Origin: a virus | IMG/VR virus record: IMGVR_UViG_3300024290_000013 | Coordinates: 1 to 20,432 of that record | DNA: 20,432 nucleotides | Strand: one strand, 5' to 3' | Part shown: piece after piece, positions 1 through 11,544 of the stretch | Position numbering within the stretch: position 1 is the stretch's first letter | Layout of the letters: every line of letters begins with the position of its first letter | The notes under the pieces: generated by a model | What the model was told of the DNA's origin: nothing | Seen by the model: the letters and a program-made list of their open reading frames with translations, nothing else | Databases searched by the model: none | Program-made: the position numbers and the translations under genes

Positions 1-115
1 GGGGGCGCTGACCTCGGTGCTCGAATAATTTTGGATTTTTTCGCGTTTTCGTCTCCGATCAGGGGGTTTTTCGGAAGAAACCCCTCTCACTCCGGCGGAA
101 ATTAATTAATTAAAG

Positions 116-143
116 TTGGGACAGTACCCGTTCACTGTCCCAA
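116..143. repeat. Perfect inverted repeat, 10-bp arms
   Basis: TTGGGACAGT at 116-125 and its exact reverse complement ACTGTCCCAA at 134-143 flank an 8-bp centre. This is the most symmetric site in the repeat cluster and a natural candidate for the primary dimer-binding site. The AT-rich run ATTAATTAATTAAAG lies immediately to its left. Confidence 0.85.
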
Positions 144-405
144 GGTACTGTCACATGGTCGGCCCCCCATGAAAAAGGCTTGTTTTCCAGTGTTTTTGAG
201 GCCTAGGTTTACTGCGCGAAAGGGGTCTTGGGACAGTGGGACAGTGACTTCTTCTCTCTACGGGGAAAAAGTAAACGTTGCACTGCAACATTAAACTTCT
301 CGCGTATGGAGAAGGTACTGTCCCTACTGTCCCTACTGTCCCAAATTAAAAGAAATAACACTGGAATCAACAGCTTAGACATGGGACAGTACCTTGGGAC
401 AGTGA
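132..405. repeat. 26-bp inverted repeat pair (132-157 and 380-405)
   Basis: The segment 132-157 matches the reverse complement of 380-405 at 25 of 26 positions; the single difference is A153, where the partner has C. Each arm contains two copies of the 8-bp motif at 13-bp spacing. The arms bracket 222 bp that hold five more copies. The pair could be two composite binding sites in mirror orientation or could form a large cruciform. Confidence 0.85.
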
Positions 406-524
406 TCCAAAACCGGCTCAAGCAGGCCCAATTAATTGGTACTGTCCCAGTTTTCCGTACGGTTTGAGTTTTTTCCGTATGTGACAGTACCCTATTTCTA
501 ATTAAAAAATTCCAATTCTTTCGT

Positions 525-596: not shown

Positions 597-1025
597 ATGA
601 CAACCGAACAGGACTGGAAAGAGGCCAGCCGCAGCGATTTCGAGGAAGAGATATACCGCGAGTATTTTTTGCGGTCGATCCACAAGCCGGAACCAGGCGG
701 GTCGTTCTTGCGGACGGACGCCGTGACCAAGGCCGAGCTTTGCAAGAGGGACGGCGACAGCTACGAGCGGCCGGAAGTGTTCGCGATGTGGTTCGGCTGG
801 TGCATGCACCAGAAATACCAGCACCAGGCCAAGTACCCCGGGCTGAGCGAGGCGGGCGTGGTGGGGTTCGTCGTCGACAGCGGACGCGACATCCCGAAGA
901 CTCCGGTCTCAGGCGATATCCCGGAGGAGGTCTACACCGGAACCCGTCGGGAACCGCAGGCCTGGCTCGATGGCGCGAAGGCTTGGCACGAGAAGTGGCT
1001 CAAGTCGCTCGGGGTCACAAAATGA
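597..1025 (+). CDS. Hypothetical phage protein, 142 aa
   Basis: I do not recognise the family. The frame also opens at 537, but the ATG at 597 is preferred because a purine-rich AAGAGA (585-590) lies six bases upstream and the 537 start would fall on the candidate promoter. The protein is soluble and acidic at its N-terminus, with many aromatic residues in the middle (the MWFGWCMHQKYQHQ stretch) and a lysine/tryptophan-rich C-terminal helix (WLDGAKAWHEKWLKSL). There is no signal peptide or membrane segment and no catalytic motif that I can name. It overlaps the next gene in an ATGA arrangement, so the two are probably translated together. Its position beside the repeat region and outside the conserved replication set suggests an accessory or early host-interaction role, which is inference. 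Confidence 0.7.
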   Translation: MTTEQDWKEASRSDFEEEIYREYFLRSIHKPEPGGSFLRTDAVTKAELCKRDGDSYERPEVFAMWFGWCMHQKYQHQAKYPGLSEAGVVGFVVDSGRDIPKTPVSGDIPEEVYTGTRREPQAWLDGAKAWHEKWLKSLGVTK

Positions 1026-1270
1026 GCGTGAAGTTCAGTGACGCCAACCGGGAGAAGATGAAGCGCGTTGCAGAAAAGCTTCTCGGCTCCTGTTCATCGG
1101 TCGATGATGTTCTGCAAGAAGTATTCGGTGACGAAGAGCTGACACTGACCGATTTCGACGCTGAGCTTCTTCGCGAACTGGACGACATGACGATGGAGTG
1201 CGTGGTGTGCAACTGGTGGTGCGAGCTACACGAACTTGACGACGATCAGGTGTGCGACGACTGTCGTTGA
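1022..1270 (+). CDS. Small zinc-ribbon-like protein, 82 aa
   Basis: The start codon overlaps the stop of the previous gene (ATGA, 1022-1025), implying coupled translation; the Shine-Dalgarno is weak (CGGGG). Residues 1-35 form a basic, helix-prone segment (FSDANREKMKRVAEKLL), followed by an acidic region. The last 25 residues carry CVVC and CDDC pairs plus a third cysteine (CVVCNWWC), consistent with a small zinc-binding ribbon or knuckle. Such C-terminal ribbons are common in small phage regulators and nucleic-acid-binding proteins, but no specific family is recognised. The gene ends six bases before a strong bidirectional terminator that it shares with the opposing operon. Confidence 0.65.
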   Translation: MSVKFSDANREKMKRVAEKLLGSCSSVDDVLQEVFGDEELTLTDFDAELLRELDDMTMECVVCNWWCELHELDDDQVCDDCR

Positions 1271-1610: not shown

Positions 1611-4112
1611 TTACGTCTTGATCGCACAAAGCTCAAGGAAGTCGCGTATCCAGGCTTGCAGGTTTGGCCGAACGACGACATCCGGCGATCGAGACCAATA
1701 CCGGGCCTGCTTTCCGTCAGCGCCTCGCGCCTTGCCGACGTACACGAAGCCTTTCGAGGTCAGGAAGTTCGACAGCTTCGGCCCGTACGGAACCCCGCAA
1801 GAAAAATCAGAAGCGACATCCCGGAGCCGGCTGACGTTGAGCAGCATCGAGTTCACTTCCGGGTCTCGACCCTCTGCGATCAGTTCTTCGATGTCGTCCT
1901 CTTCGTCCCCGCGGGCCAGGTCGATCATCCTCGCCTTCGCATCGGTCATGGGCGCGTGCCCGTCCGGATTGAACTCCGGATGCAGCGGGTAGTCTTCGAG
2001 CCATTCGCGGAGAGCGCCGGCATGGCTGGCGATGGCGTTGAAGATGTCGTCGTAGTGGTCCGGGTGCCGCTCGCGGAACTTCTCGACCATCTGTCGCGTC
2101 TGGAAATGGGTCGAGATGACGAAGTACCTTCGGTCGGCGTCGTAGACCGGCAGCGCGTCGCTGTGGTTTGTCAGGATCATCGTCGAGGTCACGTTCGGAA
2201 CGTTGTAGCTGTCCGTGTGCATTCGCCGGATCGAGACCACGTCGTTCGTAATGTACGGCTTGAGCTTGTCCATCACAGCGTAGCGCGACGTGCCGTGGAT
2301 TCGTGCCTCTTCGAGAACGACGACCTTGCGCGAATCGTAGAAGCCGGTGTACTTCTCTTCGAGCGCCTGAGCGTTCACGACCTCGACGTTATTGCGCGAC
2401 ATGATCGCCATGAGCATTTCGCCGATGAAGCCCTTGCCGGCGCCGTCTACGCCTTGCATCACTACCGCCCACCGAATCTTCTTGTCCATGCGCTTGATCG
2501 TGTAGGCGAGCCATGACAGCAGGATTTCACGCTCCCGAACGATCGGGTATGAAATCTCGAAGTGACGCTTCACCGCCTCCACTGCGCGCCTCGCGCGGCC
2601 GGTCAGCTTTTCGGGAACCGGCACTAGGTCATCCGGGTTGAACCTGTTGACGTGCTTGCGGCCTTCCCACTCGACGATACGATCGGCGCCCGGCAAGTAG
2701 ACGTAGCCGCTGACGACTGGCACCTGGTAGACGTTCAAGGCCAACGCCGCGGCCTGCTGTTCCGGCGACGCCTCCATGTTCGCTCGGTCCTTCTTCGTCA
2801 GCAGGAACCGATTGTTGCGGGCGTTGAACGCGCGCTCGCTCAACGCGAGGCGGTTCTCCATGTAATAGAACTCTTCCTCCGCGTCGACGTACACCACGTC
2901 GTTGCACCAATGCGGAAGTTCCTTGTAGTTGAAATCGCTGTTCTTGAAACCCTCGTTGATCGCTTTGCGGACCAGATCGATTCGGATTTTCCGGCCGCTG
3001 AGTTCTTTCACTCGCTCGATGATCGCGCCGGCCAGCAAGTCAACCTGATAGTCATGCTCAAGAACGCGCCCCCATTTCGTCGCGAGCGATCCGAGGAGTT
3101 CCACTTCGCTGTTGCACTCGCGGACCTTGCGCTGAATCTTCTCGAACTGCTCCTTGGAATGTTCTTGGCGGTTTTCCTTCGCCATCTTTATGAGCGAGGC
3201 CGCGGTAGTGATGTTGCGGCCCATCTCGTCGTGAAATGAATTCCATTTCCTTTCGAGGATGTCGGCGTCGTAGTTGTGCGCTGTCTCGGACCACTCGTGC
3301 CAGAGCTGGAGGCCTTCCTCGTTGCCGTCGAATTGGTGGTGCAACGCCATGCCGACTTTGAGCCACTGCTCGTAGTCATCGGCGTCAGGAACCCACTGAA
3401 GAATTTCGCGAAGCTGGTCTTCGGTTAGGTTTTCGAGAGGCCTCTTGTGTTCAAGAAGGGCGTTGTCGTTTTCATCGTTTTCGTCCATCGACTCTCGCGG
3501 GGCGTTGTGCTTTTTCAACGTCCATCCGCGGCGTTGTGCTTCGAGCTTGAAGACGGAAAACAGCTCGTCGACATGGTCAGGTGTTATTTCCGGTAACAGG
3601 TCTGCCGGCACGCTCACCGGGGTCATGTCTTTGCCGGAAGTCCAACGGTACGGCTTCTTCGTGTCCGGATGTATGCCGATGCCTACGAACTGCTGGCCGT
3701 CCGCAAGAATTTCTACAGCCTGCTCGTCGCCGTCCGAGTCTAGAAAAGTCAGCTTTCGCTTCTGGAACGGAACGGATGTTCGATAGACGAGCAGTGTTTT
3801 CGGCGCCCGCCCTACGCGCGTCATCGTCTTGCCGATGATTTCCTGCGCGTGGTCCGACATGAGCTGTGCCATTTCTTCGTCGGTGATGTCGATGTCGACA
3901 GCCGGCGTGTACTTCGTGTGAAAGCCGATGTTGCCGTTTTTGTAGGCGCCGTTGCTCCACTTACGAACGAGCTTTTCGTTCGCTTGTATTTTTTGCCATT
4001 TGGGTTCGGTCGGACCTTTTCTTCCTGCCGGGATCGGCAAGATTGAGTATCCGTTTTCGAGGAGCTGTGCGCCGTATCTCCGGAGCACGCTCGTAACAGG
4101 TCGTCCGGCCAT
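1611..4112 (-). CDS. Primase-helicase: PrimPol-like N-terminus, PriCT-2-like middle, D5/DUF5906-type SF3 helicase
   Basis: This 833-residue protein probably primes and unwinds phage DNA. Residues about 10-175 resemble the bifunctional primase-polymerase domain, with the acidic motif VDIDI at 72-76 and GIGIHPD followed by PYRW at 144-157. Residues about 227-310 (LTEDQLREILQWV, then YEQWLKVGMALHH) resemble a C-terminal primase domain of the PriCT-2 type. Residues about 520-670 are a superfamily 3/D5-like ATPase: Walker A GVDGAGKG at 554-561, Walker B KVVVLEE at 596-602, sensor 1 ILTNH at 646-650 and an arginine motif DRRYFVI at 660-666. The Walker A lysine is followed by glycine rather than Ser/Thr, a variant I associate with DUF5906 proteins. 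The C-terminal ~100 residues may be a winged helix. GGAG lies seven bases upstream of the ATG. The regulator gene ends three bases before it, so the two form an operon. Confidence 0.88.
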   Translation of the reverse strand: MAGRPVTSVLRRYGAQLLENGYSILPIPAGRKGPTEPKWQKIQANEKLVRKWSNGAYKNGNIGFHTKYTPAVDIDITDEEMAQLMSDHAQEIIGKTMTRVGRAPKTLLVYRTSVPFQKRKLTFLDSDGDEQAVEILADGQQFVGIGIHPDTKKPYRWTSGKDMTPVSVPADLLPEITPDHVDELFSVFKLEAQRRGWTLKKHNAPRESMDENDENDNALLEHKRPLENLTEDQLREILQWVPDADDYEQWLKVGMALHHQFDGNEEGLQLWHEWSETAHNYDADILERKWNSFHDEMGRNITTAASLIKMAKENRQEHSKEQFEKIQRKVRECNSEVELLGSLATKWGRVLEHDYQVDLLAGAIIERVKELSGRKIRIDLVRKAINEGFKNSDFNYKELPHWCNDVVYVDAEEEFYYMENRLALSERAFNARNNRFLLTKKDRANMEASPEQQAAALALNVYQVPVVSGYVYLPGADRIVEWEGRKHVNRFNPDDLVPVPEKLTGRARRAVEAVKRHFEISYPIVREREILLSWLAYTIKRMDKKIRWAVVMQGVDGAGKGFIGEMLMAIMSRNNVEVVNAQALEEKYTGFYDSRKVVVLEEARIHGTSRYAVMDKLKPYITNDVVSIRRMHTDSYNVPNVTSTMILTNHSDALPVYDADRRYFVISTHFQTRQMVEKFRERHPDHYDDIFNAIASHAGALREWLEDYPLHPEFNPDGHAPMTDAKARMIDLARGDEEDDIEELIAEGRDPEVNSMLLNVSRLRDVASDFSCGVPYGPKLSNFLTSKGFVYVGKARGADGKQARYWSRSPDVVVRPNLQAWIRDFLELCAIKT

Positions 4113-4115
4113 GCG

Positions 4116-4385
4116 TCACTCCGAAATGAGTTCGTCGCCAACGAGGTCGTCGATGTTGAATCCGATAAGCCGATGATAGTCCTTGTGCAGAATGCTCGCT
4201 TTCGAGCGCGGCACAGAACCTATGCGCTGCCACCTGGAGACCGTGGTCTCGTGCCAGTTGTAGGCCTTGCAGATGGAATTGAGTCGCCCGGTAGGAGGAT
4301 CGAGGGCCAGAGCAATGCGCCGGAGTAGATAGCGGACGCGCGCGTCGGCGCTTTCCAGTGTGTCAAGGGTCGGGTCTCGGCGCAT
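4116..4385 (-). CDS. Cro/YdaS-like helix-turn-helix regulator, 89 aa
   Basis: This is probably a DNA-binding repressor of the divergent control region. The frame is open upstream to 4538, but the ATG at 4385 is preferred: the upstream extension would cross the whole divergent promoter region, and GAGGA lies just before this ATG, although closer than usual. Residues 35-65 (LNSICKAYNWHETTVSRWQRIGSVPR in two parts) read as a helix-turn-helix: a helix, the turn N-W-H, then the recognition helix ETTVSRWQ, followed by a G-x-x-P element typical of Cro/YdaS-like proteins. The C-terminus (NIDDLVGDELI) is acidic. It is the first gene of the leftward operon, directly before the primase-helicase gene, and faces the acidic protein gene at 4538. 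Autoregulation through the inverted repeats at 4417-4448 or 4459-4471 is inferred. Confidence 0.7.
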   Translation of the reverse strand: MRRDPTLDTLESADARVRYLLRRIALALDPPTGRLNSICKAYNWHETTVSRWQRIGSVPRSKASILHKDYHRLIGFNIDDLVGDELISE

Positions 4386-4416
4386 ACGTCCTCGCAGATA
4401 GGTGGATAGTGGCCCC

Positions 4417-4448
4417 GCTAAGTCGGTTTGAATGCCTATTGACTTAGC
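4417..4448. promoter_or_regulatory. Inverted repeat in the divergent control region (candidate operator)
   Basis: GCTAAGTC at 4417-4424 is exactly mirrored by GACTTAGC at 4441-4448, with a 16-bp gap (24 bp centre to centre, slightly more than two helical turns). The right arm overlaps the candidate -35 box at 4439-4444. It lies directly upstream of a helix-turn-helix gene, as expected for an operator of that protein. Confidence 0.55.
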
Positions 4449-4467
4449 ACATGAACGGGCGCATAGT
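4439..4467 (+). promoter_or_regulatory. Candidate sigma70 promoter for the rightward replication genes
   Basis: TTGACT (4439-4444, five of six consensus bases) is followed after 17 bp by CATAGT (4462-4467, four of six). Transcription would start near 4474 and give a leader of about 64 bases before the ATG at 4538. The -10 lies within the palindrome GCGCA-TAG-TGCGC (4459-4471) and the -35 within an arm of the 8-bp inverted repeat, so both elements could be covered by a repressor. Confidence 0.55.
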
Positions 4468-9564: not shown

Positions 9565-10967
9565 AAGAGCTACTAAAGCGATCCGACCTCGACGAGTTTC
9601 AAATCGCTGCCGGCCTGTTCCTCGAACGGGTCGGTAGTTGCGCGTTGTGGATCGACATGGGTCTTGGCAAGACCGTCGTCGTGCTCACGCACGTTTCGGA
9701 CAAGGTGTTCTCGGGGCAGTGGAACCGCGTACTGGTCGTTGGCCCGCCGCTCGTCATTTCGGACACTTGGTCGACCGAAATAAAGAACTGGGAGCACACT
9801 CGGTTCCTCGACTATCAGGAACTCGATGGCGACACCGAGCACATGCGTACGCAGCTACAGCGGCCGTGCGAAATCGATGGCATTTCGGTGCATAAGCTTG
9901 GACGGCTGGCAGCTCTGTTCAAACGAGGCGACACTGTGCCCTGGGATGCGGTTGTGTTCGACGAAGCGAGTATGTTTCGCAACAAGTCGTCGAAGAGATG
10001 GAAGTACGGAGTTCGTTTGACTTGGGAGCAACCAAACGACGTGATCGAACTGACCGGCACGCCGAGCCCGAATGGCCTGCATCAAGTCTGGTCGCAGATT
10101 GCGATGATCGACGGCGGCGAGCGTTTAGGCTTGACCTACAAAAAGTTCTTGTTCCGTTGGTTCAAGCAAGAGTTCATGGGCCGCAAGGTTGTCCCGAAGT
10201 CGCACGCGATGGCGTCGATTACGAAGAAGCTCAGCGACATCGTCTACACCTTACGCGAAGAGGACTACGTCAAGCTGCCTCCGCTCCGCTCCACGTCTGT
10301 GCCGATCATTCTACCGCCGGATGTGATGGCTCGCTATCAGGAATTCGAGCGTACTTCTGTGCTGAAATTGGACGAAGAGCAAGACCCGGCGGTACGTGCG
10401 CTATCGGAAGGCGCGCTTTACGGAAAGCTGTTGCAATTCGCATGTGGTCGAATCTACACCGACAGCGAGACAAAACAATTTGTCGACATACACGATAAAA
10501 AAATAGAGCGACTGAAGGAAATTGTCGAGTTTAGCGACGGCTCTCCGATCCTCGTCGCGCGAACTTGGCAGCATTCTCGCGACCGCCTTCGGGATGAGTT
10601 TCCCGGCATTCGTTCGCTTAAGACCAAACGGGACTTAGCCGCATGGAACGCAGGCGACATTCAGATAGCGGAGACGCATCCAGCGAGCATAGGCCACGGC
10701 ACTAACCCGCAGAAAGGCGGCAATAATCTCGTGTGGTACGACCATACGCCAGACCTCGAATTGTACTTGCAGTTGCGTAAACGACTTCATAGACGCGGCC
10801 AGGAGAGAAGCCACGTCAACATGACTCATTTGACGACGGTAGGCACTATCGAGGAAGATTTGATTCGGCAGCTCGCTAAGAAGGAAGTCACTCAAGACGC
10901 CTTGAGAGAGCCGATGAGACGAAGAATCGAAGACATCCGCAAGGAGATAGCCAATGGCCGCGCCTAA
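9561..10967 (+). CDS. SNF2/DEAD-like superfamily 2 helicase, 468 aa
   Basis: This is an ATP-dependent DNA translocase or helicase in the replication set. The Q-like start DEFQ is at 11-14, Walker A DMGLGKT at 32-38, motif Ia VVGPPLVISDTW at about 59-70, the Walker B box VVFDEAS at 131-137, motif III LTGTPSPNG at 164-172 and motif VI RLHRRGQ at 408-414. The second RecA-like domain carries ILVARTWQHSRDRL and GHGTNPQKGGNNLVWYD, as in phage SNF2-type helicases. The ATG at 9561 overlaps the VRR-NUC stop, so the frame start at 9549 is not needed. The 3' end overlaps the small terminase gene by 14 bases. It probably acts with the VRR-NUC on branched or recombining DNA; a role in origin unwinding is less likely, since a D5-type helicase is also present. 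Confidence 0.92.
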   Translation: MKELLKRSDLDEFQIAAGLFLERVGSCALWIDMGLGKTVVVLTHVSDKVFSGQWNRVLVVGPPLVISDTWSTEIKNWEHTRFLDYQELDGDTEHMRTQLQRPCEIDGISVHKLGRLAALFKRGDTVPWDAVVFDEASMFRNKSSKRWKYGVRLTWEQPNDVIELTGTPSPNGLHQVWSQIAMIDGGERLGLTYKKFLFRWFKQEFMGRKVVPKSHAMASITKKLSDIVYTLREEDYVKLPPLRSTSVPIILPPDVMARYQEFERTSVLKLDEEQDPAVRALSEGALYGKLLQFACGRIYTDSETKQFVDIHDKKIERLKEIVEFSDGSPILVARTWQHSRDRLRDEFPGIRSLKTKRDLAAWNAGDIQIAETHPASIGHGTNPQKGGNNLVWYDHTPDLELYLQLRKRLHRRGQERSHVNMTHLTTVGTIEEDLIRQLAKKEVTQDALREPMRRRIEDIRKEIANGRA

Positions 10968-11544
10968 GATTGATTACGAAGAAGAGTTTTTCAACGGCAT
11001 GACTGTTCCGCGACTAGCGCAGTTGTTTCGGCTTGATCGACGTACAGTCACCGAAAAACTGCGCCCCCTTCGACCGACCGGCGAGCGTCACGGCGCACCC
11101 ACATATCACGTTGTTGACGCGGCTCCATACCTCGTCGATCCGATTGTCGACATCGCCAAGTACCTGGCAGAAATCGGTCCCGGCGAACTGCCTGCGCCCC
11201 TGCAAGCGCAATACTGGAACGCGCAGAACAGCAAGTTGAAGTACAAGAAGCAGTCGGGCGACTTGTGGCGCACGCAGCAGGTGCTCGAAGTGCTGACCGG
11301 CGTGTTCCGCTCGCTCACGCAGTCACTTCGCCTGCTGGCCGACCGCATCGAAGCGCAGACCGGCCTTACACCGGAGCAGCGCGCGATCATCGAGCGCGAG
11401 GTATCCGACAAAGCCATCGACATGCTGCGCAAGCGCCTCGTCGAAGACTTCGAGATTTACGTCGGCATCAAGGACAAGGAACAGCTTGCCGACATCAAGA
11501 TCGATGACATTGGCCTCGACGAAGAGGAAGACGACGATGCTTGA
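10954..11544 (+). CDS. Terminase small subunit (lambda Nu1-like position), 196 aa
   Basis: This is the DNA-recognition subunit of the packaging motor. AAGGAG (10941-10946) lies seven bases before the ATG, inside the end of the helicase gene. Residues about 13-45 (FNGMTVPRLAQLFRLDRRTVTEKLRPL) form a winged or plain helix-turn-helix of the Nu1/DUF1441 type, for binding the packaging site. The middle (YWNAQNSKLKYKKQSGDLW) is the basic helix typical of these small subunits, with a helical segment after it for oligomerisation and an acidic C-terminus (DEEEDDD). The length matches lambda Nu1 (181 residues). It overlaps the large terminase start by eight bases. The phage DNA site it binds is not next to the gene, because no non-coding space exists here. 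Confidence 0.8.
   Translation: MAAPKIDYEEEFFNGMTVPRLAQLFRLDRRTVTEKLRPLRPTGERHGAPTYHVVDAAPYLVDPIVDIAKYLAEIGPGELPAPLQAQYWNAQNSKLKYKKQSGDLWRTQQVLEVLTGVFRSLTQSLRLLADRIEAQTGLTPEQRAIIEREVSDKAIDMLRKRLVEDFEIYVGIKDKEQLADIKIDDIGLDEEEDDDA

Follow-up and report, generated by a model that had tools for sequence, protein, structure and literature searches.

A co-varying iteron array beside cos as the probable replication origin of a phage of the Casjensviridae

The window, by which is meant the whole stretch of 20,432 nucleotides that was analysed (IMG/VR record IMGVR_UViG_3300024290_000013), begins with the end of a phage genome, its position 1 being the cos end, which the initial annotation did not note. 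The order of features from this end is a repeat array, starting about 105 bp from the cos overhang, two small rightward genes, one small leftward gene, a primase-helicase gene and the gene of a Cro-like regulator, the last two leftward, so that three small genes separate primase and array. After the regulator come recombination and replication genes, and then TerS, TerL and structural genes. With its terminase and cos, and with portal, capsid and tail genes in relatives, the window belongs to a phage genome and not to a phage-inducible chromosomal island. The coordinates of the features are collected in Table 1.

Because the primase shares 84% identity with its counterpart in Xanthomonas phage AhaSv and 77% with the ones in Suzuki, Bhz60 and 'Clavibacter phage 33' (Clav33), the phage is assigned, by sequence, to the Casjensviridae, near Sanovirus and Salvovirus. 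The record OR548257.1, with the Gram-positive Clavibacter as recorded host, is a near relative of this group's phages of Stenotrophomonas and Xanthomonas, and the host label may be wrong. Of the two small rightward genes (together window 597-1270), the first has a weak counterpart (36-38%) in Suzuki, Bhz60 and Clav33 and none in AhaSv or Salvo. Upstream of these two genes, at 545-553 and about 60 bp from the last iteron, lies an extended -10-like sequence, TGCTATGCT.

Table 1. Features of the window, with position, strand and basis of assignment
Feature	Position	Strand	Basis
cos 5' overhang GGGGGCGCTGAC, phage genome end	1..12		Identical to overhang annotated in Stenotrophomonas phage Suzuki and to end of relative L002 (55,601 bp)
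AT block AATTAATTAATTAA adjoining iteron 1; possible unwinding element	102..115		Sequence
Iteron 1 GGGACAGT	118..125	+	Sequence
Iteron 2 GGGACAGT	134..141	-	Sequence
Iteron 3, variant GTGACAGT	147..154	-	Sequence
Iteron 4 GGGACAGT	230..237	+	Sequence
Iteron 5 GGGACAGT	238..245	+	Sequence
Iteron 6 GGGACAGT, tandem triple (9-bp period)	317..324	-	Sequence; triple kept in relatives
Iteron 7 GGGACAGT, tandem triple	326..333	-	Sequence
Iteron 8 GGGACAGT, tandem triple	335..342	-	Sequence
AT-rich spacer (72.5% A+T) separating inverted iteron sets; likely melting/loading core	343..382		Spacing common to relatives with other words
Iteron 9 GGGACAGT	383..390	+	Sequence
Iteron 10 GGGACAGT, 13-bp spacing	396..403	+	Sequence
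Iteron 11 GGGACAGT	441..448	-	Sequence
Iteron 12, variant GTGACAGT	481..488	+	Sequence
Primase-helicase, 833 aa: Prim-Pol (AEP), PriCT-2, DUF5906 (SF3-type), C-terminal winged helix; proposed initiator	1611..4112	-	Pfam; PHROG 'DNA primase'
Winged-helix domain at the C-terminus (residues ~736-807), proposed to read the iterons	1692..1907	-	AlphaFold2 model (mean pLDDT 87.7), helices and wing hairpin
Strand 1 of the wing (residues 790-796), containing K794; all GTGACAGT/GTGACACT relatives have R here	1725..1745	-	Comparison and model
Cro-like regulator, 89 aa, upstream of primase; disfavoured as iteron reader	4116..4385	-	Discordant pairs
Terminase small subunit (TerS), N-terminal HTH; disfavoured as iteron reader	10954..11544	+	Discordant pairs

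The array at 118-488 consists of twelve copies of an 8-bp word in both orientations, ten of them exactly GGGACAGT and two reading GTGACAGT, with TTGGGACAGTACC as the longer consensus. This recount agrees with the initial annotation, and so does the composition of the region, which had been described as gene-free and AT-enriched: its A+T content is 53%, against 42% in the whole window, and it has no convincing gene, the two open reading frames of at least 50 amino acids running through the repeats. The spacings of 8, 9 and 13 bp given earlier apply inside the tight groups only, because successive copies start 16, 13, 83, 8, 79, 9, 9, 48, 13, 45 and 40 bp apart. The motif does not recur at equal density elsewhere, an outcome that had been named as counting against a dedicated site: there is no exact GGGACAGT in the remaining 19.8 kb of the window, and the six matches with one mismatch outside the array are at chance level. 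About 0.016 exact copies are expected by chance in positions 1-596, and an 8-mer occurring at least ten times arose in one of 2,000 first-order Markov resamplings of the array region.

In the relatives an array lies at the same place, from the primase 3' end to cos, and its word differs by lineage; of the earlier suggestion that the motif might be found at the same non-coding place in related phages, the location holds while the motif sequence is not conserved. The words GTGACAGT and GTGACACT occur in the Salvo-type contig L002, AhaSv, Suzuki, Bhz60, Clav33 and G002, AGGTCCGAAT in AH2 and Nazgul, AGGTTACAA in Seifer and Chi, TATTACAA in SPN19 and Enc34, and AACCTGCAAG in phiAxp-2, and further lineages carry other words. 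Where the count covered a whole or nearly whole genome, it came to about 12-15 copies per phage, nearly all in the primase-cos region; AH2 and Nazgul have two further copies beyond cos, on its far side. When 88 loci were searched for a single repeated exact 8-mer in a fixed stretch of 800 bp just 3' of the primase, such a word was over-represented (P<0.01) in 50. Among the 38 loci without a significant single word are G002, whose array lies beyond the 800-bp stretch, arrays whose copies have diverged too far to share an exact 8-mer, and perhaps loci that truly lack an array. An exact 21-bp pattern gave no match in viral contigs, because the motif shifts between lineages. In Pseudomonas phage SS2019XI (L038/L043), which has an integrase and whose terminase and primase are far apart, the repeat array and a cos-like sequence still adjoin the primase. 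The Chi-like phages Seifer, Season12 and Smarc6 (L041, L237, L242) have a small HTH gene between primase and array, which is absent from SPN19.

When the arrays of the window and of Salvo are aligned, they correspond site by site, and ten of the twelve sites differ by the same base, reading GGGACAGT where Salvo has GTGACAGT or GTGACACT. A concerted, site-by-site change of the same kind separates SPN19 from L101. The core layout consists of facing iteron sets, with their nearest copies 45-50 bp apart from start to start, around an AT-rich spacer (A+T 55-74%). It is present in the window (sets at 317-342 and 383-403, with 343-382 between them), Salvo, Suzuki, G002, Seifer, Chi, L101, SPN19, Enc34 and Salado, and some other lineages depart from it.

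An ACA core is common to many of the words, across many lineages (GGTTACA, GGTAACA, ATTACA, GGGACA, TGACA, AAGACA), and the recognition helix, which is more conserved, may be what reads it. Triples of GGGACA[GC]T or GTGACA[GC]T with a 9-bp period are also seen in other phage contigs (L226:5620-5820, L227:6163-6363, L228:2888-3204, L225:8111-8483), close to the 3' ends of different replication genes (Prim-Pol with a VapE-like gene in L226 and L228, DUF3987 in L225), which suggests that initiators of other kinds are accompanied by the same word.

The primase-helicase had been credited with an SF3 domain, and Pfam identifies this as DUF5906. The C-terminal domain has no Pfam match. An AlphaFold2 model of a 165-residue segment, built from 28 aligned C-termini, has helices at 68-79, 92-101 and 110-118 and a hairpin of strands 122-128 and 134-139, and this is read as a winged-helix topology. 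With Foldseek the domain matches related phage primases; similarity to the winged-helix domain of P4 is unproven, because no PDB structure matched at E<0.001. A profile search of PDB sequences gave no significant relative of the domain.

Three candidate DNA-binding proteins were compared as possible readers of the word: TerS, the Cro-like regulator and the C-terminal domain of the primase. Across 27 lineages, which are not independent of each other, the Mantel correlation (rho) with motif distance was highest for the regulator (0.50), followed by the primase C-terminus (0.46) and the TerS HTH (0.37). Since neither Mantel nor partial Mantel tests separated the candidates, the argument rests on discordant pairs, in which words differ while most proteins do not.

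Consider SPN19 and L101, which carry different words. TerS and the regulator are both 100% identical between them, at every residue compared, and other replication proteins are 94-100% identical, while identity of the primase from residue 701 onward is 72%. Most of their DNA shows 83-100% identity, and a few bins are near 70%. From the last ~140 primase codons through the array, identity drops to 16-62% over most of the stretch, with about 60-79% in those codons and 16-57% in the array; nearer cos it is 83-97% again. Genome-wide, L101 matches 42 of the 57 SPN19 proteins tested at 90% identity or more. Those that fall short are the primase, at its C-terminus, gp70 (84%), and the products of accessory or tail genes; the accessory early genes among these may leave room for another reader. 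In a second pair with different words, L097 and L115, identity is 98% for TerS, 97% for the regulator and 95-98% for other large proteins, and 54% for the primase. In each pair with differing words and near-identical TerS and regulator, the C-terminal domain of the primase differs.

The comparison can be brought down to single residues. Between Seifer and SPN19 the sole difference in wing and recognition helix is a change from K to C, and the word changes from AGGTTACAA to TATTACAA. Among the Chi-like phages a wing K pairs with GG and a wing C with TATT. Ten Chi-like phages fetched after this pattern had been noticed all fit it, nine with K carrying GGTTACA or GGTAACA and one with C (BSPM4) carrying eight [TA]ATTACA, although they do not amount to ten independent tests, because several are near-identical in the C-terminal domain. 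The window has the same recognition helix as Salvo and AhaSv, and K794 in the wing where these have R; Nazgul and AH2, with wing R and wing K respectively, yet share one word. A two-position wing code, in which the second position (V or L versus T or A) would correspond to the base before ACA, fits most lineages and was dropped as a rule because of the exceptions Smarc5 and L118. Since the array and the primase C-terminus adjoin, linkage could contribute to their exchange together. On these sequence comparisons it is the primase-helicase, in its C-terminal domain, that the word tracks, and neither TerS nor the Cro-like regulator, which are disfavoured as readers because each is 97-100% identical where the iterons change.

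The initial annotation had kept two other roles for the array in view, and the same pairs bear on both. In the first, the array would be a cosB-like packaging site, where the N-terminal HTH of TerS binds the repeats beside cosN and starts DNA packaging, in the way that lambda gpNu1 binds R sites beside cosN. The array does lie beside cos, on the terminase-gene side of the genome, and TerS has an N-terminal HTH, but the site sequence does not track this DNA-binding domain: the HTH is identical in Seifer, SPN19, L101 and L102, which have three words among them, and the TerS helices of AH2 and Nazgul are different despite their common word. Furthermore, SS2019XI keeps the array, although in the stretch searched its TerS has no detectable similarity to that of the window, and Chi-like phages keep a well-conserved sequence between array and cos that is a possible terminase site of its own. 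A packaging role for the iterons is therefore improbable.

In the second, the array would be a set of operators through which the Cro-like regulator controls early transcription. This has in its favour that the regulator gene lies directly upstream of the primase gene, that regulator distance correlates with motif distance, and that the two small genes of the window run rightward, away from the array. Against it, the regulator is identical or nearly so in the two discordant pairs, the regulator helices of AH2 and Nazgul differ although the word is the same, and in AhaSv and Nazgul the flanking genes on both sides converge on the array region. The copies are not placed at the regulator's own promoter or a divergent one, as Cro-type operators tracking the HTH would be; near its own start (4380-4455) there is no copy, the best match being 6/8. 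Such an operator function is very unlikely.

The reading that we prefer is that the array is a replication origin, with iterons bound by the C-terminal winged helix of the primase-helicase. The initial annotation had proposed recognition of an origin by this C-terminus, and the co-change and co-exchange of domain and word, the facing sets with their AT-rich spacer and the convergent, gene-free location all argue for it. An origin is suggested by the iterons, the AT-rich spacer, the adjacent gene of an SF3-type primase-helicase and the position between converging gene blocks, and we regard this reading as very probable, with binding, melting and firing at this site inferred from the sequences. 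An origin beside cos will, once the genome is circularised, sit in the gap between two converging gene blocks. In five relatives the minimum of the cumulative GC skew, which had been put forward as a check, is no more than about 3 kb from cos; its amplitude is small, and it agrees weakly with an origin. A point against it is that forks leaving the array would meet converging transcription.

Initiation might then proceed as follows. Several copies of the primase-helicase would bind the iterons through recognition helix and wing. Through the facing sets, two SF3 helicase rings would be positioned so as to flank the spacer at 343-382, which the rings would melt and the Prim-Pol domain would prime, and the primed DNA would be extended by the phage PolA-type polymerase with the single-strand binding protein.

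The best reading, by analogy, is that the origin works like those of P4 and of phage-inducible chromosomal islands (PICIs). The C-terminal winged helix of P4 alpha is described as binding short origin repeats, and its primase as Toprim-type (PMC4234260, citing for the former Ziegelin and Lanka 1995; Yeo et al. 2002). P4 alpha and the window protein share the combination of primase, SF3 helicase and C-terminal winged helix (in the window a modelled topology), with short repeats at the origin. They differ in that the window primase is of the archaeo-eukaryotic type (AEP Prim-Pol), for which reason the system is not a P4 homologue, and in that the array lies immediately 3' of the primase gene in most relatives, beside cos. 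The likeness to P4 drawn by the initial annotation therefore holds for the way of working and fails for homology. In the pri-rep-ori modules of PICIs, including SaPIs, the origin is directly 3' of the initiator gene and two iteron sets flank an AT-rich region (PMC6092414), a layout also found in the window, with three small genes intervening after the primase, and in its relatives; those elements are satellites, whereas here an autonomous cos phage family has its origin beside cos with about 12 copies in several groups. In PLEs, which are Vibrio satellites, the DNA-binding domain of RepA varies together with the iterons of the origin, and the two are exchanged as a unit (PMC8263062). The change of initiator domain and iterons together is thus alike, but RepA is a RepA_N-type initiator with three iterons of ~30 bp, and not a primase-helicase.

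A variant of the origin reading would have the inverted copies recognised as a large stem-loop instead of as double-stranded iterons. Berkner et al. (PMC4234260) argued for recognition of a stem-loop by AEP/SF3/winged-helix proteins such as that of BPP-1, and reported no origin iterons; in pRN1 a small repressor gene precedes the gene for such a protein, with the origin downstream. The pRN1 ORF904 and BPP-1/BIP-1 proteins are thus of the same kind as the window protein, also with the origin 3' of the gene, but a stem-loop is reported there and the window has a clear iteron array, in which the tandem direct repeats of the 9-bp triple change like the inverted copies. Downstream of the BPP-1 primase (L230), moreover, two plus two inverted GAGGCAA repeats with a 9-bp period surround an AT-rich spacer, so that this stem-loop can itself be re-read as facing iterons. 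There is accordingly little chance that a stem-loop is what the window initiator recognises.

We found no published iterons for these phages in the open-access literature searched. The double-stranded iterons preferred here mark where replication probably starts in a large family of lytic cos phages, which includes the Chi-like Salmonella phages and phages of crop pathogens, and the stem-loop origin proposed for replicons with BPP-1-type primase-helicases may be an iteron origin. It is possible, although we advance it tentatively, that the Casjensviridae have a fast-diversifying system of initiator-origin specificity, in which a few wing residues set the word, about 12 copies switch in concert, and C-terminus and origin are traded together as one cassette. 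The pressure behind this might come from satellites, nucleases or co-infecting phages that make use of the origin or target it; PLE and ICP1 reportedly offer a precedent for such pressure. The family would provide a natural series of initiator/site pairs, in which it can be followed how an initiator and about twelve sites change together. The role of reader is given to a domain without a Pfam match, and predictions of one-residue specificity follow: K794R should shift the preference of the window protein from GGGACAGT toward GTGACAGT, and a change of the wing K to C in Chi-like phages should shift it from AGGTTACAA toward TATTACAA.
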